Shown here piece after piece: positions 816-19,195 of a stretch of 40,347 nucleotides of DNA. How positions within the stretch are numbered: the first letter of the stretch is position 1; each line of letters opens with the position of its first letter. Under the pieces are notes generated by a model, which was not told the DNA's origin, made no database searches, and saw only the letters and a program-made list of their open reading frames with translations. The stretch is taken from NCBI GenBank assembly GCA_025454925.1, contig JALONM010000031.1, positions 1-40,347 on the forward strand, written 5' to 3'. Made by a program: the position numbers and the translations under genes. Origin of the DNA: Cytophagaceae bacterium. GTDB taxonomy: Bacteria > Bacteroidota > Bacteroidia > Cytophagales > Cytophagaceae.

Positions 816-1136
816 ATGAAAAGTAAATCTGTTATATTATTGCCCAAATTGCAAAAGATTCTGGAAGAATTGGGTGAAAATGTAAAGCTAGCCCGGTTGA
901 GACGAAAAATGAGTGCTGAGCAAGTGGCAGAGCGTGCCGGTATCAGCCGTTCTACTCTCTGGATGGTTGAAAAAGGAACTCCTACTGTTGCTATGGGAAC
1001 TTACCTTCAAGTCTTGTTCATTTTAGGTCTTGAAAAAGATTTATTGAATGTAGCCAAAGACGATTTGTTGGGCAGAAAATTACAGGATGCTGAATTGCTT
1101 ATCAAAGAAAGAGCTCCTAAAAAGGATAAAAATTAA
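816..1136 (+). CDS. hipB: HipB-like helix-turn-helix antitoxin
   Basis: A 106-residue protein with an Xre/HTH_3 domain at about residues 20-75. The second and recognition helices lie around MSAEQVAERAGISRSTLW, followed by the usual EKG turn. In HipBA systems this protein neutralises HipA, dimerises and represses its own operon. Its stop is 8 bp before the HipA ATG, the standard antitoxin-first order. The lysine-rich tail (about residues 90-106) is the likely unstructured end. The start follows the only good -7 box in the region. The assignment rests on fold plus partner; a generic regulator is the alternative. Confidence 0.85.
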   Translation: MKSKSVILLPKLQKILEELGENVKLARLRRKMSAEQVAERAGISRSTLWMVEKGTPTVAMGTYLQVLFILGLEKDLLNVAKDDLLGRKLQDAELLIKERAPKKDKN

Positions 1137-1144
1137 AACAAGCT

Positions 1145-2416
1145 ATGGCTACCAAAAACACTCAGCGGGAAATACTTATCTATGCACATTGGATGGACTT
1201 TAAGCAACCTGCCTTAATGGGAACTCTGAGGGCCACATTATCGCGTGGTAAAGAAATATTTTCTTTTGAATACGATAAGGATTGGTTGACGAATAAGCAG
1301 GCCCAGGTACTTGATCCCGATTTGCAGTTATTTTCAGGGCAACAATACTTATCAGATGACAAAAGCAATTTTGGAATCTTCCTGGATTCTTCTCCGGATC
1401 GATGGGGAAGATTGCTGATGAGAAGAAAAGAAGCGGCATTGGCAAGGAAAGAAAAACGAAATAGCAAAGATCTTCATGAGTCAGATTATTTACTAGGAGT
1501 ATTTGATGGACATCGAATGGGAGGCCTTCGATTCAAAGAAACTATTGAGGGGGCGTTTCTAAGTGACAATAGAGAACTCGCTTCACCTCCTTGGACTTCG
1601 CTTAGGGAACTAGAACATGCCAGCTTACAACTCGAACGCGAAGATATTGTAGACGACCCGGATTATTTGAAATGGCTGAATATGCTCATCGCTCCGGGTT
1701 CATCTCTCGGTGGTGCGCGCCCTAAAGCCAGTGTACTCGATACAAAAGGTCATTTATGGATTGCCAAATTTCCTAGTAGAAATGATAACAAGGATATAGG
1801 AGCCTGGGAAATGGTCGTACAGGAACTTGCAGTTAATGCGAATATTAAAATGGCCGAAGCGCAGGTACAAACCTACAATAGCGCTCAACATACTTTTCTT
1901 ACAAAAAGATTTGACCGCACTCCTAATGGTGATCGAATTCATTTCGCCTCTGCTATGACTATGCTGGGGTACAACGATGGAACAGACCATCATGACGGAG
2001 TCAGCTATCTCGAATTGGCAGAATTTATCTTACGCAATTCTGCTGAAGTAGAAAAAGACTTGGAACAACTCTGGAGAAGAATTGTGTTCAGTATCTGTGT
2101 TACCAACACAGACGATCATTTACGGAATCATGGATTTTTGCTTACAAAAGATGGGTGGAGATTATCACCAGCGTATGACATCAATCCGGTTGAAACAGGA
2201 ACTGGACTAAAACTAAATATATCCGAAGACGATAATTCATTGGATATAGAACTTGCCATAGAAGTTGCCAAGCATTTCCGTTTGACAAACACAAAGGCCA
2301 AAGAAATTGTCGAGGAAGTCATAAGTTCTGTTACTAATTGGAAAAAGATTGCCACGAAATATAGAATCTCCAGAACAGAACAGGAGTTGATGAGTAAGGC
2401 TTTTAGAATCAATTAA
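1145..2416 (+). CDS. hipA: HipA-family serine/threonine kinase toxin
   Basis: 423 residues, normal for full-length HipA. Seen: an N-terminal HipA_N-like region; a glycine-rich loop at about 183-193 (PGSSLGGARPKA); the ATP-binding lysine segment LWIAKFPS; a catalytic-loop string NTDDHLRNHGF at about 328; and LSPAYDINP for the metal-binding region. In characterised members HipA phosphorylates glutamyl-tRNA synthetase or related targets and induces dormancy. The target here is unknown. All catalytic motifs look intact, so this pair is probably active, unlike the decayed genes around it. It lies 8 bp after HipB and is presumably cotranscribed. Confidence 0.88.
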   Translation: MATKNTQREILIYAHWMDFKQPALMGTLRATLSRGKEIFSFEYDKDWLTNKQAQVLDPDLQLFSGQQYLSDDKSNFGIFLDSSPDRWGRLLMRRKEAALARKEKRNSKDLHESDYLLGVFDGHRMGGLRFKETIEGAFLSDNRELASPPWTSLRELEHASLQLEREDIVDDPDYLKWLNMLIAPGSSLGGARPKASVLDTKGHLWIAKFPSRNDNKDIGAWEMVVQELAVNANIKMAEAQVQTYNSAQHTFLTKRFDRTPNGDRIHFASAMTMLGYNDGTDHHDGVSYLELAEFILRNSAEVEKDLEQLWRRIVFSICVTNTDDHLRNHGFLLTKDGWRLSPAYDINPVETGTGLKLNISEDDNSLDIELAIEVAKHFRLTNTKAKEIVEEVISSVTNWKKIATKYRISRTEQELMSKAFRIN

Positions 2417-4023: not shown

Positions 4024-6096
4024 TCAATGCAAACATCCAACTAAAAAATCTTCTAGCTCACGAACGGCTGCTATATCTTCAAAAATTTTATTGTCATGAC
4101 GTTTCATTCTACTTACAATATCCGTCCTCAACTCGATATTGCAGGAAATTTCAATTGCTTTCTCAACGTATTCATCCACGCTATGCGTGATGGTGTCTTC
4201 CACACCCATTTGTTTGAATACAGCCGTTGCAAACCGGGCACTGTGCTTATTTCCTTCCAAGGTGATGTATGGAATTCCCGCTTCGATGGCATCGTACACC
4301 GTATTCGCTCCGCCTCCATAATGAAGCGTATCCAAGGCAACAGAACATTGAGCCAGTAACCCGAGGTAATCGCCTTCTTCCATGCGCGGAAGAAAGTGAA
4401 CCCGCTGCATATCACGACCTATTGTCTTGGATAAGCGCCTTTGAAGACTTTCTGTGATTGCGTCTTGCTTGTCTTTTATAAACAAAACGATCCCTTCCGG
4501 GTCCTTTTCAAGCAAAGCAGCTATAAGTAAATCAAAATCTGGATGGACCTTTCTTACATTTTGCTGACAGATATACAACCGCTTGGTATCGGGCAAACCA
4601 TAATAGGAAAGTGTTTTTTTAAGGCTCGGAACCGGAGGCCTATAGTAATACACAGGTATCCTTGAAAATAGAATTAATTTTTCGGTATACTGATCTTGTG
4701 CGTTATCCGACTCTAGTTGTTTTTGTGAGAGGAAATAATCAACACTTTTTAGACCAGAGGTAACAGGCCAACCCCAGCTTGTCACTTGCACTTTAGCAGG
4801 TTTGGTTAAGGCTAAAAAATAATTGGTGGCATCGGTTCCTATTTCCCAATAATATAAAACATCGAATTTCGAATCGACTAAAACTTCCTGTGCTTTATTA
4901 AAAACAAATGGAAGCTCTATAAATCTGATATGGCGGTTGGATAACGCAGGTTGAATAATTTTTCTACCATTAGGCAAACTGCATACTACCGATACCTCCA
5001 TCCTTGTCGTGTCAATGTTATTCAAAATGCCTTTCATGCATTTCAGAAAAACTCCTTCATGGCCAGCCGTAACTACAAAACCTACATGAGGTTTGGTGTT
5101 GGAATGTTGAACGTTGAGCTTTGGAATAGCTTGAAATAAGCGATCATAAGCCACTTTAAGATCTTTGTTTATTCTTCCTTGGTAAATTAATTCAGAGGAA
5201 GGAAAACAGGCATTTTCTACAAGCTTAGCAATATTACTCATCGAATCTGGATTGGTGTTAGCTAATAATGACATCAACCCATTTCGGTAAGCATCAATAT
5301 CTTGGTTGCCTGAGGGAATAATGGGCGCTTTGGTTTCTAACTCAAACCGCACGTACGCATCCTCCGGATTTAATTTTAATAATTCATTTACCCACTTTTT
5401 AGATTGCGAATCTTTTCCTGCCCTCGCATACAAGTGTACCAAATTTTTTATGGCATCCTTGTAATTGGGTTGAATCTGAATAGCCCGCAGATAATGGTTT
5501 TCGGCTTCATCCAATCGATCCCATTCTATCAACGCAATACCTAGATTGTTGAGGGCAGGTGGATAATCGGGGTTAACCAAAAGGCAAGATTCGTATAAAG
5601 AAATCGCTGATTTATAGTTACCCAAGGCCAGCATGGTATTCCCTGCATTATAATAAGCAGTAAAGTTCTTAGGATTTAATGCTATTGCTTTTTGATAGGC
5701 GGGAATTGCCTCTTCTAACCTATTCAGAGCTTTAAGTGCGTTTCCTAATTTATGCCAGGCTTCATCAAAATCAGGTTTTATTGAAATAGATTGTTGTAAC
5801 AAGGGCAGTGCCTTTGCATAAGCATGTATTTTAAAGTAAGCATTACTAAGATTCGTGAGTAGAATTGGATTTTCAGGCCCTAATGCCAAGGCTTTCTCTA
5901 AATATAAAATTCCTTGCTCGTAATTTTGTAATCCACAATATGCAATTCCCAAATAGTGTAGCGCATCTATTTGTTTTGGTTTAACCTTCAAAGCTTCCTT
6001 ATATAAATTGATAGCTATGGACAAATCACCATTTTGATGGCTTCGTTGTGCAAAACCCATTAGGCTATTGAAAGAATCTTGATCTACCTTTTTCAT
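4024..6096 (-). CDS. TPR protein with O-GlcNAc-transferase-like (GT41) domain
   Basis: 690 residues. Seven consecutive TPR repeats occupy about residues 5-240. Residues ~335-680 resemble the catalytic half of O-linked GlcNAc transferase. QVTSWGWPVTSGL matches the family pattern QVxWxGxPxTxG, and DTLHYGGGANTVYDAIEAGI followed by PYITLEGNKHSAR matches the UDP-binding end (D..x..G..T..DAL..G.P..T..G....R). No signal peptide is seen, so it is likely cytoplasmic and would glycosylate a protein or another acceptor held by the TPR arm. It starts 26 bp after the TIGR03032-like gene and is probably in one operon with it. The acceptor is unknown. Confidence 0.8.
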   Translation of the reverse strand: MKKVDQDSFNSLMGFAQRSHQNGDLSIAINLYKEALKVKPKQIDALHYLGIAYCGLQNYEQGILYLEKALALGPENPILLTNLSNAYFKIHAYAKALPLLQQSISIKPDFDEAWHKLGNALKALNRLEEAIPAYQKAIALNPKNFTAYYNAGNTMLALGNYKSAISLYESCLLVNPDYPPALNNLGIALIEWDRLDEAENHYLRAIQIQPNYKDAIKNLVHLYARAGKDSQSKKWVNELLKLNPEDAYVRFELETKAPIIPSGNQDIDAYRNGLMSLLANTNPDSMSNIAKLVENACFPSSELIYQGRINKDLKVAYDRLFQAIPKLNVQHSNTKPHVGFVVTAGHEGVFLKCMKGILNNIDTTRMEVSVVCSLPNGRKIIQPALSNRHIRFIELPFVFNKAQEVLVDSKFDVLYYWEIGTDATNYFLALTKPAKVQVTSWGWPVTSGLKSVDYFLSQKQLESDNAQDQYTEKLILFSRIPVYYYRPPVPSLKKTLSYYGLPDTKRLYICQQNVRKVHPDFDLLIAALLEKDPEGIVLFIKDKQDAITESLQRRLSKTIGRDMQRVHFLPRMEEGDYLGLLAQCSVALDTLHYGGGANTVYDAIEAGIPYITLEGNKHSARFATAVFKQMGVEDTITHSVDEYVEKAIEISCNIELRTDIVSRMKRHDNKIFEDIAAVRELEDFLVGCLH

Positions 6097-9804: not shown

Positions 9805-12378
9805 CTATAATCGAGGGTCAACGGGCTCGCTTTCTAATGCCAAAATACCAAACACACAACGATGCACCTGGCGTAACGGTTCTTTTTTTACAAATCGCTC
9901 TAAGGCTTCTACTCCGAGCGAAAATTCACGCAAGGCCAGCGAGCGTTTGGCATTCAAGCCTCTTTTACGCAAGCGGCTAATATTAGCAGGCAAAGTATAC
10001 TCAGGCCCATAAATGATTCGCAAGTATTCCCTTCCCCGAATTTTTACGGCAGGTTGAATAAGTCCTTTGGCATTTTCTGAAATAAAATGGAAGGGTTTTA
10101 CCACCATCCCCTCTCCTCCTTTATTCGTAAGATTCAACCACCAGTCACATGCCTCCTGCCTCTGAACAGGATCAGTCAAAAGCACTTCTTTATAAGGCGT
10201 AGAGCGAAACAGGTGAGGCGCATGCAGAGCAATCTTCCGGATATGTTCCATGTGCCAAACATGGTCTTTATCAAAATGTGTATGATGTTCGGTAGCCAGA
10301 ATATGAAAAGGAGCTAGCTTGTAATCATTCACGGATTGCACTGGCCAACAATATTGCTGATACGATTTAGTATATTTTTCGGCAACGTCGAGACGTTCTG
10401 AGTAATCATTTAAAAGAGTAGTAACTTCAGGTCCGGATACTATTGCTTGTAACAACACATTTTTAACTTCCTGTAAGGCATTGGTAGAGGCAGTCGCTAC
10501 AGCAGCATATTGATCTCTTAACAAGGCTTGAGCCTTTGCTGACCAAGGCATTAATTCAGCATCCAAACACACCCAATCAGAATCAAATTCCTTCCAGAAA
10601 TCGGCCAGGGTTAGCGCCTTTTGCACCTCCGAAATAAATGAAAGTTCCATATCCTTGTCGGTAAAGAAATTTCTACCCGTGCGGGTATAGCAAACACCTA
10701 AGCAATCTTCGTCTATACCAAACCGTTGTTTCACCGTTTGAGTATCTTTGCAAACCACAAGCACCACGCGCGATCCCATGTGCTTTTCTTCACATACTAC
10801 TTTATCTACTCCATTTTTTATATAATACTCAAATGCTTCCTGAGGGTGTTCCAGAAAATCTTCCTTGTCGCTTGTTTCGGAGGGAGACATGGTGGGCGGA
10901 AGATAGATGAGCCATTTAGGATGCAAAGCAAACCTGCTCATTACCTCCAACGCAGCCATCGCATTTTCCTCACGTATGGTAATTTGATGTCCGTATCGTG
11001 TGGGTATGATTAGTTTTCCGCTGATATCGCCGATATCCAACACATCATCGTATTCCTGTTGCAAAGAACTGCCATTCGTAAATTCAGCATACCCCAGCGG
11101 ACGTGCTGGTATGCAATACGTTTCATGTGCCTTAACAGAGATTATTTCTTTTTCCGGATAGCGTAACGCTGTTAATTTTCCTCCAAACACGCAGCCTGTA
11201 TCAACATCGATGGTGTTGTTCAACCATTGGGCTTCAGGTACGGGAGTATGTCCGTAAACCACCATGGCTCTGCCTTTGTACTCGCTGGCCCAATTTAAAC
11301 GCACCGGCAGACCAAATTCATCGACCTCACCGGTAGTTTCGCCATATAAGCAAAAGGATCTTACAGCGCCTGAACCTCTCCCATGCATTTCTTCTTTTAA
11401 ACCAGCGTGAGCGACCACTAATTTTCCGGCATCGAAAACATAATGACTGACCAATCCATCTATAAACTGTTTAACCTTTTGTATAAAAAGAGGCGATTCC
11501 ATTGAAAGCTGATCGATGGATTGTTGCAAACCATGTTTCACCTGAACAGAATCACCTTGCAGGTATTTCAGCAGCTTTATATCATGATTACCCGGTACGC
11601 AAAATGCTATGCCTTGGGCCACCATGGCCATGACAAGCTTAAGTACGTCTGGTGTTTTGGGTCCTCGATCTACCAGATCCCCCAGAAAGATAACCCTCCG
11701 CCCATTAGGGGCCTCTACAGTAACACCCAGGTCGCTATCGGACTCGGGGCCTCGTGTAATCACATATCCTAATTTTTCTAATAAAAGAAGTAATTCATCG
11801 TAACAACCATGAATATCCCCAATAATATCAAAGGGGCCCGATTCATGTTTTTTATTATTATAAAGCTGCTCCCGCAATATAGACTGTACCTGTTCCAATT
11901 CAGTAGGCGAACGAAATTCATGGATGTGCCGAAATCCCTCTTTCTTTAAAAACTTAAGAGATTTTCGTAACTGACTAATCTGTTGAGGAATGACATGAGC
12001 CGCAAGATGCCTGTCGGTGCGCGTTTTATTGCGTTCGGCACATACCTTCTCTGACATATTCAACACAATGGCTACTGGTAAACAATGATACTTTTTTGCT
12101 AGCTGAATTAACGATTTGCGTGCCTCCGGCTGCACATGGGTGGCATCTACCACGGTAAGCAATCCGTTTTTCAAACGTTTTGAAATAATAAAATGGAGTA
12201 ATTCAAACGCGTCAGGTGTAGCCGATTGATCGTTTTCATTATCTGAAACAATTCCTCTGCAAGTGTCTGAGGAAACAATTTCTGTGGGCTTAAAAAATTT
12301 TTTGGCGAAAGTAGATTTACCAGAGCCGGATGCCCCTATAAGAATAACGAGTGATAGTTCTGGAACATTGATGTTCAT
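9805..12378 (-). CDS. pnkp: Pnkp, RNA-repair polynucleotide kinase-phosphatase-ligase
   Basis: 857 residues, the usual length of bacterial Pnkp. Three modules are visible. A 5'-OH kinase has P-loop GASGSGKS at residues 15-22. A metallophosphatase at about 180-420 has GDIHG, GDLVDRG and GNHD. A ligase/adenylyltransferase at about 490-857 has the nucleotidyl-lysine motif EEKHMGSR, where K takes AMP. Known: Pnkp heals 2',3'-cyclic phosphate and 5'-OH ends left by ribotoxins and seals them, with sealing depending on Hen1. Hen1 is encoded ~6.7 kb away on the same strand. The gene lies just downstream of the structured-RNA array and Ro60. All catalytic motifs are intact. Confidence 0.93.
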   Translation of the reverse strand: MNINVPELSLVILIGASGSGKSTFAKKFFKPTEIVSSDTCRGIVSDNENDQSATPDAFELLHFIISKRLKNGLLTVVDATHVQPEARKSLIQLAKKYHCLPVAIVLNMSEKVCAERNKTRTDRHLAAHVIPQQISQLRKSLKFLKKEGFRHIHEFRSPTELEQVQSILREQLYNNKKHESGPFDIIGDIHGCYDELLLLLEKLGYVITRGPESDSDLGVTVEAPNGRRVIFLGDLVDRGPKTPDVLKLVMAMVAQGIAFCVPGNHDIKLLKYLQGDSVQVKHGLQQSIDQLSMESPLFIQKVKQFIDGLVSHYVFDAGKLVVAHAGLKEEMHGRGSGAVRSFCLYGETTGEVDEFGLPVRLNWASEYKGRAMVVYGHTPVPEAQWLNNTIDVDTGCVFGGKLTALRYPEKEIISVKAHETYCIPARPLGYAEFTNGSSLQQEYDDVLDIGDISGKLIIPTRYGHQITIREENAMAALEVMSRFALHPKWLIYLPPTMSPSETSDKEDFLEHPQEAFEYYIKNGVDKVVCEEKHMGSRVVLVVCKDTQTVKQRFGIDEDCLGVCYTRTGRNFFTDKDMELSFISEVQKALTLADFWKEFDSDWVCLDAELMPWSAKAQALLRDQYAAVATASTNALQEVKNVLLQAIVSGPEVTTLLNDYSERLDVAEKYTKSYQQYCWPVQSVNDYKLAPFHILATEHHTHFDKDHVWHMEHIRKIALHAPHLFRSTPYKEVLLTDPVQRQEACDWWLNLTNKGGEGMVVKPFHFISENAKGLIQPAVKIRGREYLRIIYGPEYTLPANISRLRKRGLNAKRSLALREFSLGVEALERFVKKEPLRQVHRCVFGILALESEPVDPRL

Positions 12379-12576: not shown

Positions 12577-12706
12577 ATAAAAAAGAGCAACAAGCGGTCT
12601 TGCACGGGGCTATGTCAATAGGGATTTGCACCCTTTTCCGCCAAAGGCGGAACCCTACCCCATTATTGGCTGACGAAGTATGCAATACCTACGGCATCCT
12701 TTTTAT
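12577..12706 (-). ncRNA. Y-like tRNA-mimic RNA, unit 4
   Basis: 130 nt. 5' block AAGGATGCCGTAGG, seven bases, then TACTTCG; 3' block CTTGTTGCTCTTT. Ends pair (ATAAAAAG with CTTTTTTAT, one bulge). Inside: a perfect 7-bp hairpin TTCCGCC/GGCGGAA in the place of an anticodon arm, then a T-arm variant with stem AGGG/CCCT and loop TGCAAAT, and an enclosing CAATA/TATTG stem. A run of six T at the 3' end could terminate transcription. No D arm was found. It is the unit nearest pnkp. The RNA call is inference from conserved ends and pairing shared with three neighbours. Confidence 0.65.
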
Positions 12707-12724
12707 AATTCTTACATTCGATAC

Positions 12725-12860
12725 ATTAGAAAGAGCAATTATCGATACAAGCATTTATCCGGGGCATCGCATGCCGGGAGTCGAACCCGGGATCCTGCTT
12801 TCACAAAACCTCCTCCCCATGCACGAGCGAAGTAGCTCGTATCTACGACATCTTTCTAAT
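12725..12860 (-). ncRNA. Y-like tRNA-mimic RNA, unit 3
   Basis: 136 nt. The terminal stem is a perfect 9 bp (ATTAGAAAG with CTTTCTAAT). 5' block AAAGATGTCGTAGA, seven bases, TACTTCG; 3' block TCGATAATTGCTCTTT; GTCG of the first can pair with CGAT of the second. TACTTC is presented as the loop of a 6-bp hairpin ACGAGC/GCTCGT. A canonical T arm (CCGGG, loop TTCGACT, CCCGG) and a loop TTGTGAA that would be a His (GUG) anticodon loop follow. GCATG/CATGC may act as a short acceptor stem. It cannot be a working tRNA: no D arm. Confidence 0.72.
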
Positions 12861-13130
12861 CAGCTCCTCTTTCCGGATTCGAACCGGGACTTCCTGTGCA
12901 TGACAGCCAGGCTATCCATGCACTTCCCTAGCAGACTTCTACGATGGGTCTTTCGTTGCAACTGAAAACTCGATTCGTCTTGCACGCAACCCTAACGACT
13001 TTCTCCCGGCACTGCACGGTTTCAACTTTTACCGCAGCGCTTCCTTTTAAGCTAAAGAGGCAACTTCAATATTAAGTATGGACTGAGAAGTCTTGATTTT
13101 TTTTCATCATTCCATACGATAGAAAATTAA
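12861..13130 (-). other. further tRNA-like and hairpin sequence, unit boundaries unclear
   Basis: Contains a T-arm-like element (12873-12887, stem CCGG, loop TTCGAAT), preceded in the RNA by a 7-bp hairpin GTGCATG/CATGCAC (12896-12923) enclosing an Asp-like CTGTCAT loop, and a partial 5' block (CATCGTAGA near 12945). Nearer 13130 there is a degenerate 3' block (GTTGCCTCTTTA, about 13040) and hairpins GTATGGA/TCCATAC and GCGCTGC..GGT/ACC..GCAGTGC. CCTCTTT near 13043 could pair with AAAGAGG near 12868, giving one ~178-nt RNA. It may equally be one or two decayed units. Confidence 0.45.
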
Positions 13131-13272
13131 TAAAGGGCAACAATCGAACAGAGACGTATGCTGCTCTACCTTCTGAGCTACCCAGGCATGAATACACTTG
13201 TACCTGAGGTGGGACTCGAACCCACGACCCGCCGATTAGTAGTCGAAGTAACCCTGTTCTACGGCACCTTTA
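13131..13272 (-). ncRNA. Y-like RNA with circularly permuted tRNA domain, unit 2
   Basis: 142 nt. 5' block AAAGGTGCCGTAGA, seven bases, TACTTCG; 3' block TCGATTGTTGCCCTTT; ends pair through TAAAGG/CCTTTA. In RNA order: a perfect T arm (13225-13209, stem GTGGG/CCCAC, loop TTCGAGT); acceptor 3' strand CTCAGGT (13208-13202); a 14-base loop; acceptor 5' strand GCCTGGG (13187-13181); TA as positions 8-9; and a D arm GCTC..GAGC with AGAAGGTA loop (13178-13163). The two acceptor strands pair over 7 bp with two G-U. This is a tRNA top half in swapped order, closed by a loop, with the anticodon arm replaced by the terminal stem. Confidence 0.75.
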
Positions 13273-13342
13273 ATCTTTTATGCTCCTTAGAAATTTAATC
13301 CAGATAATTATCCGGACTCTTCTATGGCACTTAAAAAGTTTT

Positions 13343-13438
13343 ACTGAAAAAGCAATAATCGAAAAGCCTCTGGGGGTCGAACCCCACTCCTTTCAGAGTT
13401 CACCAACGAAGTATGGCTTCTCTACGACATCTTTCAGT
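13343..13438 (-). ncRNA. Y-like tRNA-mimic RNA, unit 1
   Basis: 96 nt, first unit after ro60. The terminal stem ACTGAAA/TTTCAGT is a perfect 7 bp. 5' block AAAGATGTCGTAGA, seven bases, TACTTCG; 3' block TCGATTATTGCTTTTT; GTCG can pair with CGAT next to an acceptor-like stem AGAAGCC (13421-13415) with GGCTTTT (13368-13362), 7 bp with one G-U. Inside are a small ACTC/GAGT hairpin and a T-arm-like TGGGG..CCCCA around TTCGAC. No D arm. A run of five T follows 8 bp downstream. Between units 1 and 2 (13273-13342) lies a further partial block (GTGCCATAGA) and an imperfect hairpin TCCGGATAA/TTATCTGGA. Confidence 0.7.
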
Positions 13439-13522: not shown

Positions 13523-15052
13523 TTATACTTCTATCTTTTTTATTTCGTCCAATGCATTGCTTCCATTTTCTATGGCATTCAATACATCAAACACTTTGTC
13601 TGACCATCCTGCTATCAGGAACACATCTCGATCTTTCAGGCTCACGGCTACTTGTCCGTGTCCTGCGAGATCAAACAGATAAAGCTTCGCTTCCGGAGCA
13701 ATGGATTTCTTATAAATATTCCATTCGTTGCTTAAACTATGGGTTCCATTCGTGCTATCCCAAAGTTGCATATCCGTAAAGAATAAAATTTTATCCATCT
13801 TCTGCTTTCTTGCGATCAGATCTTTAATAACAAGAAACCCATTTGTGGAATATCCTACTTGCCCTTCCATACTTCTTAGCTTTTGAGAGTTTCCAAGTAC
13901 TCCTGCTTTCGGAAGATGGATTAACGTCCACGTATCCCCGAAAATTCCTGTTTCTACATTGGTAGAACGGTTTCTCATGAGCATACTTAATATCAATCCG
14001 ATATCATAGTTTTGTATCGAACTATTTTTAGAAATCGCACTATACATTGAACCCGACACATCGGAAGCAATCAACACTCTTGTATTCAGGTCAAATCCTT
14101 TTATATTTTCAGCGCTTATAAAGACTGCTTTTTCCAGACAATCCATTATAAATCCGACGTAAGAAGAATTTACTTTCTGAACTTCTCTATAAGCAGACAG
14201 GAATCGGAAAGGAAGTTGTTTAGAATTTCTAACCTGTGTTTCTGAGGAAAGAATTTCGCCTACCTTTTTCATGGCATCGGAACTTACTTGAAGCTCCAGG
14301 ATGTTGCGGAGATTTCGTAACAAAGCCATGTAACCTAGTCTACCGCTCAGAATTAATTCCTCCCATTTGGCTTTGAAAGCCAGATGTTGGTTTTCCTTCG
14401 TAGCATATTTTTGCTGACCTAATCTCGATAATTCAACTTCCCAGGTATATGGAATTTCCAAGGTATCCTTCACAATCTTATTGAACAAAGCTTGTTGTTG
14501 CTCATTCGTTGCTTTAGGGTGAACGATAAATAATGCATCACGCAGTTTTACTTGTGCCTCTCGGTTATATTTAGCGAATTGATATTCATCAAATTTACCA
14601 AAAGCTTCTGCCACTCCTTTCTGCAACTGCTTGGAAAGTTTATTCAGCTTTTTAGTACCGATTCGCTTGTTTGAAGCCTGGTAATAAGCCAGCAACTCTG
14701 TGATTTCATCGGCTCTTTGTATGATTCGATAAACCGTATTTTTTACCAGACTATCGCCGGAATGAATCTTAGCAAGTTCTACTGCCAGCACCAAAGGCAC
14801 ACTTCTCAAATGCATTTTCTCACGAGTATAGATGGCAAGCTGTGCTACAAACAAAGGATCTGATATTGAAATCAACGAAATAATTCTTGCCAAACGATCG
14901 TCTGCTTTTTCGTACATCATATCAGAAAGACTGGCAGTCACTACGGCAGAATAGAGTTCCCACTCAGGAGTGAGCCTAAAAGCTTTTCCACCTTCGTAGT
15001 TATTCAATTCCTGATTAGTTCTTTTTGGTATGTTAAATTTCATGACTGACAC
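13523..15052 (-). CDS. rsr: Ro60/TROVE-domain RNA-binding protein
   Basis: 509 residues, normal for bacterial Ro (Rsr). Residues ~15-310 are the helical TROVE repeats that form an RNA-binding ring (for example DPLFVAQLAIYTREKMHLR and RLGYMALLRNLRNIL). Residues ~320-509 are a vWA domain with an intact MIDAS motif DVSGSM at about 331. Known: Ro proteins bind misfolded RNAs in the ring and Y RNAs on its outside; in Deinococcus and Salmonella they cooperate with nucleases and Y RNAs. Here the gene lies directly before an array of Y-like RNAs and pnkp and is divergent from a WYL regulator. A second Met at residue 4 is an alternative start. Confidence 0.92.
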   Translation of the reverse strand: MSVMKFNIPKRTNQELNNYEGGKAFRLTPEWELYSAVVTASLSDMMYEKADDRLARIISLISISDPLFVAQLAIYTREKMHLRSVPLVLAVELAKIHSGDSLVKNTVYRIIQRADEITELLAYYQASNKRIGTKKLNKLSKQLQKGVAEAFGKFDEYQFAKYNREAQVKLRDALFIVHPKATNEQQQALFNKIVKDTLEIPYTWEVELSRLGQQKYATKENQHLAFKAKWEELILSGRLGYMALLRNLRNILELQVSSDAMKKVGEILSSETQVRNSKQLPFRFLSAYREVQKVNSSYVGFIMDCLEKAVFISAENIKGFDLNTRVLIASDVSGSMYSAISKNSSIQNYDIGLILSMLMRNRSTNVETGIFGDTWTLIHLPKAGVLGNSQKLRSMEGQVGYSTNGFLVIKDLIARKQKMDKILFFTDMQLWDSTNGTHSLSNEWNIYKKSIAPEAKLYLFDLAGHGQVAVSLKDRDVFLIAGWSDKVFDVLNAIENGSNALDEIKKIEV

Positions 15053-15168: not shown

Positions 15169-16212
15169 ATGCCTGTTAACCGAAATGCATTAATACGATA
15201 TAAAACCATCGACCATTGCTTGCGCAACCGCCGCCGCAGATGGACGCTGGAAGACCTCATTGAAGCTTGTTCCGAAGCTTTATATGAATATGAAGGGATT
15301 GACAAGGGCGTCAGCAAACGATCCATTCAGGCAGACATACAAATGATGCGCAGTGAAAAATTGGGATATAATGCCCCTATCGTAGTGCTTGAAAAGAAGT
15401 ATTATACATACGAAGATCCTGAATACAGCATCACCAACATCCCTCTTTCGGATCACGATATGAATACCCTTTCCGAAATACTGGGAATATTGAAACAGTT
15501 TAAAGGATTTTCTCATTTTAATCACCTGGACGGAATGGTGCATAAACTTGAGGATTATGTATATGTGCAAAAGGAAAACAAAAGGTCCGTTATTGATTTC
15601 GAAAAAAACGAATTACTGCGTGGTTTGGAACACCTCGATACCATTTACCAAGCGATTGTTCAGGAACAGGTGCTTGAAATAACCTATCAATCGTTTAAAG
15701 CCACCGAAGCTCATACATTTAAATTTCATGCTTATTTACTAAAAGAATATAAAAACAGATGGTTTGTAATTGGCATCCAAAAGAAAGGGCAACCCATCCT
15801 AAACCTTGCCTTGGATAGAATAAAGCTGGTGCGTGTTTCTCTTCAGGACAAATACCTTGTGAATACGGAATTTAGTGCGGAGGCATTTTATGCGCATGCT
15901 GTTGGGGTGACGGTAATTGAGGGGATGAGACCCGATAAAATCGAACTACGGGTTGATAAACACAATGCCCCTTATGTAGAAACCAAGCCTATTCACCCAT
16001 CCCAAACGATTGTGGAACGGTACGATGATGGCAGTATCCGAATCGCATTAAAAGTGATTATTAATTATGAATTGGAAAGAGAAATCCTGGGCTTCGGAGA
16101 TAGTATGATTGTGCTGAAACCCGAACGTTTAAAAAAACGAATTATTAAGAAGATGGAAAAAGCATTGCAAGAATACGCTCATCTTCTCGATTATTCTGAA
16201 CCCAAGCCGTAA
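15169..16212 (+). CDS. WYL-domain transcriptional regulator
   Basis: 347 residues. The N-terminus (about 1-75) is a winged helix (LIEACSEALYEYEG, then VSKRSIQADIQMMRS, the typical recognition helix). Residues ~160-235 are the WYL domain (ITYQSF, FHAYLLKEYKNRWFVIG, LALDRI), and the rest is the C-terminal extension. WYL domains are thought to sense nucleic acid or nucleotide ligands and often control RNA-repair and CRISPR loci. It is divergent from ro60 with 116 bp between, so it probably controls the ro60-RNA-pnkp block. Damaged RNA ends or 2',3'-cyclic products are plausible ligands (inference). Confidence 0.88.
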   Translation: MPVNRNALIRYKTIDHCLRNRRRRWTLEDLIEACSEALYEYEGIDKGVSKRSIQADIQMMRSEKLGYNAPIVVLEKKYYTYEDPEYSITNIPLSDHDMNTLSEILGILKQFKGFSHFNHLDGMVHKLEDYVYVQKENKRSVIDFEKNELLRGLEHLDTIYQAIVQEQVLEITYQSFKATEAHTFKFHAYLLKEYKNRWFVIGIQKKGQPILNLALDRIKLVRVSLQDKYLVNTEFSAEAFYAHAVGVTVIEGMRPDKIELRVDKHNAPYVETKPIHPSQTIVERYDDGSIRIALKVIINYELEREILGFGDSMIVLKPERLKKRIIKKMEKALQEYAHLLDYSEPKP

Positions 16213-16564: not shown

Positions 16565-17638
16565 TCAAGAAGAATACCACTTATTACGTATGGACCATAA
16601 CAATTCCTCTGCCTTTTGCCAGTCGGGTTCTTCGGGTAGATCGGACTTGTCAAATAACTCATTCATACTACTCATTTTTTCTTCTGCCAATTGAAGGAGA
16701 TATTCATAACCAAATTCACCTCTTCTGATTTTTAATAAAAAATCCCGATCGTGTCGATGCACGATGACTCTTTTGTGTCTGGCAATCTCTTCGGCCATCG
16801 TCAACAGTCGAAAAACATGCATCATATTTTTCGCATCGTAATTTTTACCATGCTCCAGCGTGCCTTGATAACGTTCCTCGTTTCGAACCTCCACCCAATT
16901 CCAATAATCTTTATACTCTTTACAATACGTCGAATATCCATCTTTATTAACATGTACGATGCATAAAGGATCTATATGGGGAGGAATGGAACTCAACAAA
17001 ACCTCCTGGGATTCATCTCCTGAAAAGACACCCCGAAGTTTAGTCTTTTCTATCCCTTGCGAAGAATGAAACAAAGCGTAGACATCACGGAAATGAGGAA
17101 TAGCAGATAATCCGCAGTCTTGTTGCAGATACGCATAGGTATGGAGCCAAGCCGACAATGGAATACTTCCGGCACCTTGCTGCACATAACAAAAATCAAG
17201 CATTGATTTTTTCTCCTTGGAAAAAGGATTTACAATTTTTTTATTCAGTCCGCGTGCCTTTTTTATCTGAGCTTCTGCATATCCCGCAAAACTTTGTCGA
17301 CACAGCTTAGATAGAAACCAACCCGGATTAATGTCATCCAGGCAAGGGTGCTTGTAAATTACACTTTCTTCCGGCGTATACAACAATTCCAGAATGGTAG
17401 GGTTATTTTTCATGAGCAATTCCATAAAGCGTTTTAATTCGTAATAAACGATATCACTTTTGGCATTACTTATTTGTTCAGCATATCGCCAACCATAGAA
17501 AATATTTTTGGGCAAAATATAAATGCCTTTAATATCCATATCGGATTGCGGAGTATGCAAGCCGTAGGCTCGGCTTCCGCTTATTACTTCTAATAATAAA
17601 CAGGAACGATGAGCATATAGCCAATCCAGTGTTTGCAT
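16565..17638 (-). CDS. rlaP: RlaP-like RNA-repair nucleotidyltransferase (pol-beta fold)
   Basis: 357 residues. The catalytic signature of the minimal pol-beta superfamily is near the start: GSRAYG at about residues 21-26, then SDMDIKGIYI with the two metal-binding Asp. The rest matches the long helical form of the RNA-ligase-associated type (PF10127) that recurs in RNA-repair operons. The reaction is not settled; addition of nucleotides to repaired or damaged RNA ends is proposed for the group. It begins 9 bp after the hen1 stop and is surely cotranscribed with it. The remaining doubt is whether it belongs to RlaP rather than a related COG3541 branch. Confidence 0.75.
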   Translation of the reverse strand: MQTLDWLYAHRSCLLLEVISGSRAYGLHTPQSDMDIKGIYILPKNIFYGWRYAEQISNAKSDIVYYELKRFMELLMKNNPTILELLYTPEESVIYKHPCLDDINPGWFLSKLCRQSFAGYAEAQIKKARGLNKKIVNPFSKEKKSMLDFCYVQQGAGSIPLSAWLHTYAYLQQDCGLSAIPHFRDVYALFHSSQGIEKTKLRGVFSGDESQEVLLSSIPPHIDPLCIVHVNKDGYSTYCKEYKDYWNWVEVRNEERYQGTLEHGKNYDAKNMMHVFRLLTMAEEIARHKRVIVHRHDRDFLLKIRRGEFGYEYLLQLAEEKMSSMNELFDKSDLPEEPDWQKAEELLWSIRNKWYSS

Positions 17639-17647
17639 GGCTTCGTT

Positions 17648-19048
17648 TTATTTCATTGAAAAAACAGCCATTTGACTGGGAGCCCCAACCAGCTCATGCA
17701 GTGGCCCTACGGGCTTACACAGAAACGAGTAGCCATACTTTATTGCCAATCCCTTGGCCCAGGCTTCAAACTCTTGACGAGTCCATTCGAACCGATGGTC
17801 TGCATGGCGGAAAGAGCCAGCCGAGAGGGTTTCATACTGGGTATTGTATTCGGCATTGGGAGTTGTAATGACAATTGTTTTCGGTCTAGAATACTCAAAT
17901 AAAACCTTTTCTAAAGTCTTCAATCTGTCTGTGTCCAAGTGTTCGATTACCTCCACCAAGGCTGCGGCATCATAGCCTTCGAGCCGTTTATCACGATAGG
18001 TTAGCGAGCCTTGAATCAATTGAATACGCTCCAGTTGGGTGGGAGAAAAGCGATCAAGCTTTAATTTTTGTTTTGCTAATTCCAGGGAACGATACGACAC
18101 ATCCATGCCTAGTATCATTTCAAACTGTTTTTCTTTTACTAATAAACGCAACAGGCGGCCTTCGCCACAACCCAAATCTAACACCCGTTTGGCACCAGAG
18201 GCTAGTAACTCCTCTTTGGCTGCCAGTAGCCGCGCGGCATGTAAGTTCAGCACTTCCTTTTCACCACTCTCAACTTCTTTCGTCCCTTCCTCTTCGGTAT
18301 TTTCTGTGGCATCTTGTTGCATCAAGGCTACCAAAGCCTGATTGGTATAAGCAGGCATACTTTTTAGATAACGTTGCGTAATTTGTTTTTTCTCAGGATG
18401 CACTTCCAACCAACCTTTCCCTTTACTTACTAATTTCTCAATTTCATGTTCTCCAATCCAATAGTGTTTTGCATTATCCATAACAGGAATCAACACGTAT
18501 AAATGAGAAAGCAACTCTTTTAATTTCAATCGATTCTTCATGGTTACAGTAAAATATCTGCTTTTCCCCCATTCCGGAAAATTTGCATCGAGTTCGTGTT
18601 GCTGAGCCATAACCTCATACCCTAAGGGCTCCAGGAGTTTTCGAAGAAATACTTCTCCTCCTTTAACAGGCAACACCGCTAGTTTTACTTCAAGGGGCAG
18701 CACCTCTTCCACAAGTTCAGGTTTATCTTTGCACGTTCCATTCATGGCCGAAGAAAACGCTTTGGCTATGGCATGGCTCATCAGCGAAGAGGCTACGTAA
18801 GGGCGGTCATTCACATATTGTTCTAACAAAAACCCATCTCCGGCAGGGCCTTTATCATTTCGCACTAAACCTACTGGATCAATATCCAAAAGTAAGGCAA
18901 CAGTGCATTTTTCCTCTGAATTCGCAGTATAAAAAATATGGGCTTTGCCGGCAGAAAGTTCCACTTGCTGACATTTATCAGGTCTTTTATGAAGCAAATA
19001 ACTAAGGTCAGATGCCTTGGTATGCGTAGATGTGATGGTTAAAAGCAT
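17648..19048 (-). CDS. hen1: Hen1, 3'-terminal RNA ribose 2'-O-methyltransferase
   Basis: 466 residues from the ATG at 19048. A TTG 33 bp upstream gives a longer frame, but family members begin with the MLLTIT string found at 19048. The N-terminal half is the Pnkp-activating domain (DLSYLLHKRP). The C-terminal half is the methyltransferase: SAM-binding DLGCGEGRLLRLL at about 290-300, metal ligands in EVIEHLD, and the later His in FRHADHRFEW. Known: bacterial Hen1 2'-O-methylates the 3' end of a healed fragment before Pnkp joins it, so the repaired tRNA resists re-cleavage. First gene of a two-gene operon with the RlaP-like protein. Confidence 0.93.
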   Translation of the reverse strand: MLLTITSTHTKASDLSYLLHKRPDKCQQVELSAGKAHIFYTANSEEKCTVALLLDIDPVGLVRNDKGPAGDGFLLEQYVNDRPYVASSLMSHAIAKAFSSAMNGTCKDKPELVEEVLPLEVKLAVLPVKGGEVFLRKLLEPLGYEVMAQQHELDANFPEWGKSRYFTVTMKNRLKLKELLSHLYVLIPVMDNAKHYWIGEHEIEKLVSKGKGWLEVHPEKKQITQRYLKSMPAYTNQALVALMQQDATENTEEEGTKEVESGEKEVLNLHAARLLAAKEELLASGAKRVLDLGCGEGRLLRLLVKEKQFEMILGMDVSYRSLELAKQKLKLDRFSPTQLERIQLIQGSLTYRDKRLEGYDAAALVEVIEHLDTDRLKTLEKVLFEYSRPKTIVITTPNAEYNTQYETLSAGSFRHADHRFEWTRQEFEAWAKGLAIKYGYSFLCKPVGPLHELVGAPSQMAVFSMK

Positions 19049-19195
19049 TCTTTTAGAATTTAGTTCACCAACTATGATCAAATAAAACGTAAGAATTCTT
19101 TAACCATTAGTGTAGCTAATTACAAATTACAGGAACATCTACGCATTCTATGTGCGCAGGTCTATTTTACTTTATTTCTTTTTATGAAAAATCGA

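Follow-up and report, generated by a model that had tools for sequence, protein, structure and literature searches.

What kind of RNA is encoded immediately downstream of the Ro60-like gene rsr in this member of the Cytophagaceae, and why does it carry the arms of a tRNA elbow in swapped order? In the window, by which we mean the whole 40,347-nucleotide stretch analysed here, the RNA in question (unit 2) occupies 144 nt at 13130-13273 on the minus strand, an assignment that rests on the match to an Rfam family and on homologues, which pair and covary accordingly. In the minus-strand direction it contains a T arm (13225-13209) with the stem GTGGG/CCCAC (13225-13221/13213-13209) and the loop TTCGAGT (13220-13214). 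The acceptor stem follows (13208-13181), in which the 3′ strand CTCAGGT (13208-13202) comes first, a 14-nt closing loop (13201-13188) second and the 5′ strand GCCTGGG (13187-13181) last, the two strands forming seven pairs of which two are G-U. TA, corresponding to tRNA positions 8-9, stands at 13180-13179, and the D arm, GCTC AGAAGGTA GAGC, at 13178-13163. These parts were identified from sequence, fold and alignment, and the acceptor stem also from pairing in homologues. The whole is closed by a terminal stem in two parts with an internal loop between them, the outer AAAGG.GC/GCCCTTT and the inner AACAGGG/CTCTGTT. The swapped-order elbow that the earlier note had read from the letters, from the T arm through the 7-bp acceptor stem and its loop to TA and the D arm, is therefore confirmed at 13225-13163.

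That note had proposed folding as a check. The lowest-energy fold of 13275-13128 indeed holds the T arm, the acceptor stem and the D arm, but in energy it does not stand out from shuffled sequences (z -0.66; 51 of 200 shuffles are at least as stable). Thermodynamic stability was thus rejected as proof of the structure, and the evidence for it is comparative.

For this comparison, rsr loci were collected by searching with the Rsr protein, which gave 19 from one genome collection and 35 from 36 further genomes or hits of two samples; the 54 rsr stretches parsed include the window and leave out the distant locus L019. A Y-foot pattern recognises 167 units in 42 of the 54, with up to seven in one stretch. 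To judge the acceptor stem, 43 units were picked by their T arm and first D-arm anchor, with pairing ignored; seven units whose T and D anchors lie too close for 7 + 7 bases were left out, as was L004, a near-copy of L006. Their acceptor strands form 6.12 of seven pairs on average, compared with a mean of 3.45 when strands are shuffled between units (the highest of 5000 shuffles reached 4.23), and six or seven pairs are formed in 34 of the 43. The pairing of GCCTGGG with CTCAGGT, on which the earlier note had staked its reading, is thus kept in homologues. An earlier count that applied a pairing threshold gave a mean of 6.37 over 46 units with 44 distinct strand combinations; L004 and three units with doubtful D arms were set aside both there and in choosing the alignment of this type of unit, which we call type A. 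Since the 39 units of that alignment were chosen for at least six acceptor pairs, those below six being dropped, the 43-unit test is the fair one for the acceptor stem. From the 39 units, RNAalifold recovered the outer foot, the inner foot, the T arm, the acceptor stem and the D arm unaided, with compensatory change in 29 of 33 pairs. The covariation score is 0.767 against 0.217 for shuffled alignments, none of 500 of which reached it, and 95.2% of the pairing cells hold a pair, against 66.6% after shuffling. Two covarying terminal helices with an internal loop between them are what is expected of the terminal stem of a Y RNA, which unites the 5′ and 3′ ends and has such a loop for the binding of Ro. 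The Y-like stem of the earlier note is accordingly borne out by covarying pairs and by the adjoining Ro-like (TROVE) gene, and its closed acceptor end by pairing and covariation.

To which known family does such an RNA belong? An Rfam scan of the window at E values up to 1 returned a single match, YrlA (RF02553), over model positions 1-114 of 114 at 13255-13131. Its E value is 6.9e-6 and its score 41.2 bits, below the curated gathering cut-off of 69 bits. When 10 further rsr loci were scanned, no named family ranked above YrlA in any of them; its matches, at 28-46 bits (best 45.8), are again all below 69, and one of them, in L030, spans two tRNA genes. Since the YrlA head resembles tandem tRNA genes, weak YrlA matches (E up to 1) also turn up in 13 of the 14 control genomes. 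As the score lies under the cut-off, we name unit 2 YrlA-type and do not present it as a certified member of RF02553. YrlA is recognised by a tRNA-like domain with swapped T, acceptor and D arms and by a gene near the Ro60 ortholog; unit 2 has both. It is a divergent YrlA and no new kind of RNA, its architecture being already known under that name. As a tRNA gene it was rejected: ARAGORN finds none in the window, and the tRNA model reaches 20.9 of the 29 bits required, at 13201-13265.

The YrlA of Salmonella (RF02553, PDB 6CU1) is described as having the same order of foot, T arm, acceptor, closing loop, acceptor, D arm and foot, and as adjoining rsr (PMC8394870). According to the same source, the structure of its tRNA-like head (PDB 6CU1) has been solved, and DusA and TruB introduce dihydrouridine and pseudouridine into its loops. 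By analogy, both modified nucleotides are expected in the corresponding loops of unit 2. Unlike that YrlA, unit 2 scores below the cut-off, its foot words TGYCGTAG...TACTTCG belong to this group of loci, and it sits in an array of differing units beside Pnkp, Hen1 and RlaP instead of rtcBA. The Y RNA of Deinococcus radiodurans (RF01053) is reported to tie Rsr to PNPase (PMC4726728), but unit 2 has no RF01053 match; a unit of another kind in L024 (type C, below) alone matches weakly, at 34.2 of 80 bits (E 0.028). tmRNA is another RNA said to mimic tRNA (PMC8394870); it differs by its normal order, its tag frame and the lack of a Y foot, and ARAGORN finds no tmRNA in the window. The YrlA plan thus extends to loci of Bacteroidota and Acetivibrio, in sequences that score too low for the public model to name; these loci show clean covariation, and they tie the plan to repair clusters with Pnkp/Hen1 or RtcB.

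A model built from the 39 type A units follows rsr closely. Unit 2, on which it was trained, scores 124.6 bits. At least 85 bits are reached in 44 of the 54 rsr stretches, of which 29 had given model sequences and 15 had not, so that 15 of the 25 stretches outside the model are positive at this level. No match of at least 60 bits was found in eight of the 54, two of which end soon after rsr. Among 295 sampled genomes of the class, all 14 with a TROVE protein score at least 90.9 bits; 13 of these gave training sequences and one (G078) did not. The other 281 score no higher than 55.9 bits, reached by a partial match of the tandem-tRNA kind over the head part. The type A model thus separates much better than the Rfam YrlA model. 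Among the stretches of viral contigs listed for the foot pattern, 80 were compared with the model, and none of these matched at E 1e-6. The position of the units can vary: in G078 (C4, 186730-188259 and 213408-214431) the Y RNA array lies about 26 kb from rsr, and in the Acetivibrio loci L016, L017 and L018 (5702-5873) the type A unit is upstream of rsr, not downstream.

In the window, rsr itself (13523-15052, minus strand; TROVE 1.4e-28, Ro60 vWA 1e-8) ends 86 bases before unit 1, the first unit of the array. Between them, at 13498-13470 on the minus strand, a GC-rich hairpin is followed by T-rich bases, and this could be a candidate terminator of rsr. After the array comes a Pnkp-like RNA repair enzyme with kinase, phosphoesterase and ligase domains (9805-12378, minus strand). 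On the other side, a WYL/WCX regulator diverges from rsr (15169-16212, plus strand), and beyond it lie the RNA repair nucleotidyltransferase RlaP (16565-17638, minus strand) and the RNA repair methyltransferase Hen1 with its Hen1_L region (17648-19081, minus strand). All four were assigned by domain matches. RtcB is matched in 23 of the 54 rsr stretches and Pnkp substantially in few (the window, L003, L016 and L018), many stretches being too short to include neighbours. Also near the cluster are an HTH and HipA-like pair (816-2416, plus strand) and a TPR/glycosyltransferase-41-like protein (4024-6096, minus strand).

What might the RNA do at such a locus? Bacterial Y RNAs of the YrlA kind are described as binding Rsr by their foot, and the Deinococcus Y RNA as tying Rsr to PNPase and gating Rsr (PMC8394870, PMC4726728). 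From these studied relatives, unit 2 would most likely link Rsr with a tRNA-binding enzyme, as a tether or as a gate. Rsr, a Ro60-like ring, would bind the foot, and the tRNA-like head would dock an elbow-recognising enzyme; the RNA would thereby tie this enzyme to the ring or block entry to the ring. With a Pnkp/Hen1/RlaP cluster around it, candidate partners would be PNPase and enzymes that repair or modify tRNA. We consider it probable that unit 2 is a YrlA-type Y RNA working in this way.

The earlier note had suggested a decoy, sensor or scaffold for enzymes of tRNA repair, and such a role is possible. On a rival reading, the head would recruit Pnkp/Hen1/RlaP, or RtcB, to Rsr, and damaged tRNAs caught by the ring would be mended and not degraded. 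The gene order rsr - array - Pnkp suits this idea, as does the description of a TROVE protein with a tRNA-like partner as an RNA repair platform (PMC7824862). However, the repair enzymes vary by locus, Pnkp being present in few and RtcB in many, and the type A head is constant; a constant partner such as PNPase therefore fits at least as well, and a guide for repair seems to us doubtful. On another rival reading, the head, which lacks an anticodon arm, would compete for an anticodon nuclease or another attacker of tRNA and thereby shield tRNAs, and the neighbouring enzymes would mend those already cut. Competition of the YrlA head for an anticodon nuclease is among the possibilities suggested in PMC7790460, which reports no YrlA fragments after damage. 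The repair enzymes of the window and the RtcB matches elsewhere, the several differing elbow heads in one locus and the tRNA gene arrays at some loci would all agree with a decoy. Yet a decoy would do without a Ro-binding foot, whereas here the foot is conserved best of all parts. No nuclease partner is known, and the heads copy no single tRNA of the genome, the best agreements (21 of 26 and 21 of 25 positions; 30 tRNAs compared, 33 genomic matches over the cut-off) coming from different tRNAs. We regard shielding of tRNAs as unlikely to be the function.

It could also be argued that the swapped order is the mere junction of two tandem tRNA genes, where the 3′ half of one meets the 5′ half of its neighbour, and serves no function. 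Tandem tRNA genes do reach the 55.9 bits mentioned above with the type A model over the head part, and tRNA arrays are present in related loci; for these reasons such a junction may well be the origin of the head. As an account of the present RNA it is highly improbable, because the covariation of the acceptor strands between units, and of the foot too, already contradicts a reading without function; moreover, no anticodon arm is left in the head, and type A tracks rsr. The tether or gate between Rsr and an elbow-binding enzyme stays our preferred reading of unit 2.

Unit 2 does not stand alone on its foot. Four units of the window carry a Y foot (units 1, 2, 4 and 5), and unit 3 carries none. 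Unit 1 (13345-13436, minus strand), assigned through the type B alignment, joins the foot to a type B head made of a D-loop-like TTGGTGA strand, a small hairpin and a T arm. Units 4 (12728-12857) and 5 (12580-12703), both on the minus strand and recognised by the foot pattern and the type C alignment, have type C heads, with GGGG...CCCC closing strands, a hairpin and a T arm in unit 4 and the T-loop variant TGCAAAT in unit 5. A crude rule divides the 167 units into 51 of type A (swapped elbow), 51 of type B (a T arm for which no D-arm partner was found, some of these being in fact swapped-order heads with a short acceptor), 24 of type C (GGGG/CCCC strands), 36 of type E (short units without a T loop) and five unclear ones. 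The alignment of 18 type B units, from which the rows of L004, L003, L041, L047, L048 and L049 were left out, shows compensatory change in 18 of 22 predicted pairs. In type B units a strand like TTGGTTGA precedes the T arm; from the alignment we take it for a possible D loop, whose two Gs would be presented to the T loop. For 26 type C units, compensatory change is found in 19 of 24 predicted pairs, and the GGGG/CCCC helix is absent from the predicted consensus pairs. In both types the covariation covers the foot and the T arm. No paper on arrays of such units was found in the literature collection searched. The array is a naturally occurring series of heads that share one foot, which raises the question of which enzyme each head binds.

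Unit 3 (12864-13061, minus strand; defined by an alignment of six sequences) is of a different kind, type D, a tRNA-like RNA of about 200 nt in normal order, in which the unit parser found no Y foot. Acceptor, D arm, extra hairpin, conserved core, short variable arm and T arm follow one another, and the core, which lies in and around the place of the anticodon arm, reads TTTRCAG..GCACCGAA, a hairpin and GTAGGGAAGCG in the bacterial copies. The six sequences share 44 pairs, 27 of them changed on both sides, and score 0.641 for covariation against 0.272 after shuffling (0 of 500 shuffles reach it). Copies are found in L003 (7693-7890), L006 (2449-2651) and L123 (2592-2746). A close copy in L004 (2397-2583) differs from that in L006 by four separate 4-base absences, 16 bases in all, which are either real or an assembly error. 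The type D model reaches at least 50 bits in nine of the 54 rsr stretches, one of them a Firmicutes record (L017), and at least 126 bits in seven of the 295 class genomes; below these seven, the scores drop to 29.5 or less. A sample of the phylum gave four of 296 genomes, all four among these seven. Two of the seven are without a TROVE match; one (G247) has type D near a WYL regulator and the other (G272) near 14 tRNA genes and a Band-7 protein.

Type D is shared with phages. Its core pattern occurs in 26 viral contigs, 17 of which have a model match of 50-80 bits, and most of the viral stretches checked also have tRNA genes. One type D copy is matched by 23 Streptomyces phage records, in which nothing is annotated under the match (21) or a hypothetical protein is (2). 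The copy of Streptomyces phage Comrade (NC_048728, 80573-80727) is surrounded by tRNAs and a tmRNA as well as by genes for a Band-7 protein, an RNA ligase and a polynucleotide kinase. One query of plasmid records gave no match. Rfam placed no family over its cut-off on four type D copies, the closest being tRNA at 28.1 of 29 bits on one phage copy, and we therefore think that type D is an undescribed tRNA-like RNA; no paper on it was found in the literature collection searched. It offers a concrete, testable RNA family common to bacteria and phages. Identity with rnaC or rnaD of phage T4 was rejected, since the best score in that stretch, 14.0 bits, falls on a tRNA gene. Mimicry of 23S rRNA by the core was likewise dropped: aligned over the whole length, 23S scored no higher than shuffles, and the core profile scored 6.8 bits on E. 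coli 23S, beaten by two of 300 shuffles, with no match among those listed on Bacteroidota 23S. The words ATGCACCGAA and GTAGGG.AGCG do occur in the same order at 1147-1208 of E. coli 23S rRNA, a likeness unsupported by the shuffle control.

Taken as a whole, these rsr loci might hold a panel of tRNA mimics instead of a single Y RNA, with several elbow heads (the full swapped elbow, the T arm with a D-loop strand, the head closed by GGGG/CCCC) on one Ro foot and the new type D family beside them. Each head would occupy a different tRNA-handling or tRNA-attacking enzyme. Type D, which also occurs in phages with tRNA arrays and genes for Band-7 protein, RNA ligase and kinase, would act as bait or as regulator when tRNAs are damaged and repaired. 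We put this forward tentatively, as a possibility that we do not favour outright.

Genes for tRNAs also accompany some of these loci. Four rsr stretches have tRNA arrays downstream of rsr, with 7 (L031), 14 (L030), 23 (L029) and 23 (L034) genes, and in these and in L108 (7890-9802) the arrays of 7-23 genes are mixed with Y-foot units or type D. Total tRNA matches amount to 50-61 in three of the four array genomes and to 38 in that of L031, compared with 36 in the genome of the window, so that three of the four genomes seem to carry the array as an extra set. The trn operon of Anabaena, with 26 tRNA genes, is described as a silent array repressed together with rtcB by TrcR (PMC10272220). It resembles these arrays as a silent tRNA array whose control is shared with an RNA ligase, and differs in that the ligase gene lies elsewhere in the genome and that the available part of that source reports no Rsr or Y RNA. 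In eight stretches (L009, L015, L023, L025, L026, L027, L035 and L051) rsr is followed by only one, two or three named tRNA genes, and tRNA-Lys(UUU) is present in five of these stretches, an apparent regularity noticed post hoc. L108 further contains two swapped-order tRNA-like elements (at about 6527 and 6682, minus strand), neither of them a junction of called tRNAs, which have anticodon arms too, with the loops CTGTTAA and CTGAAAA.
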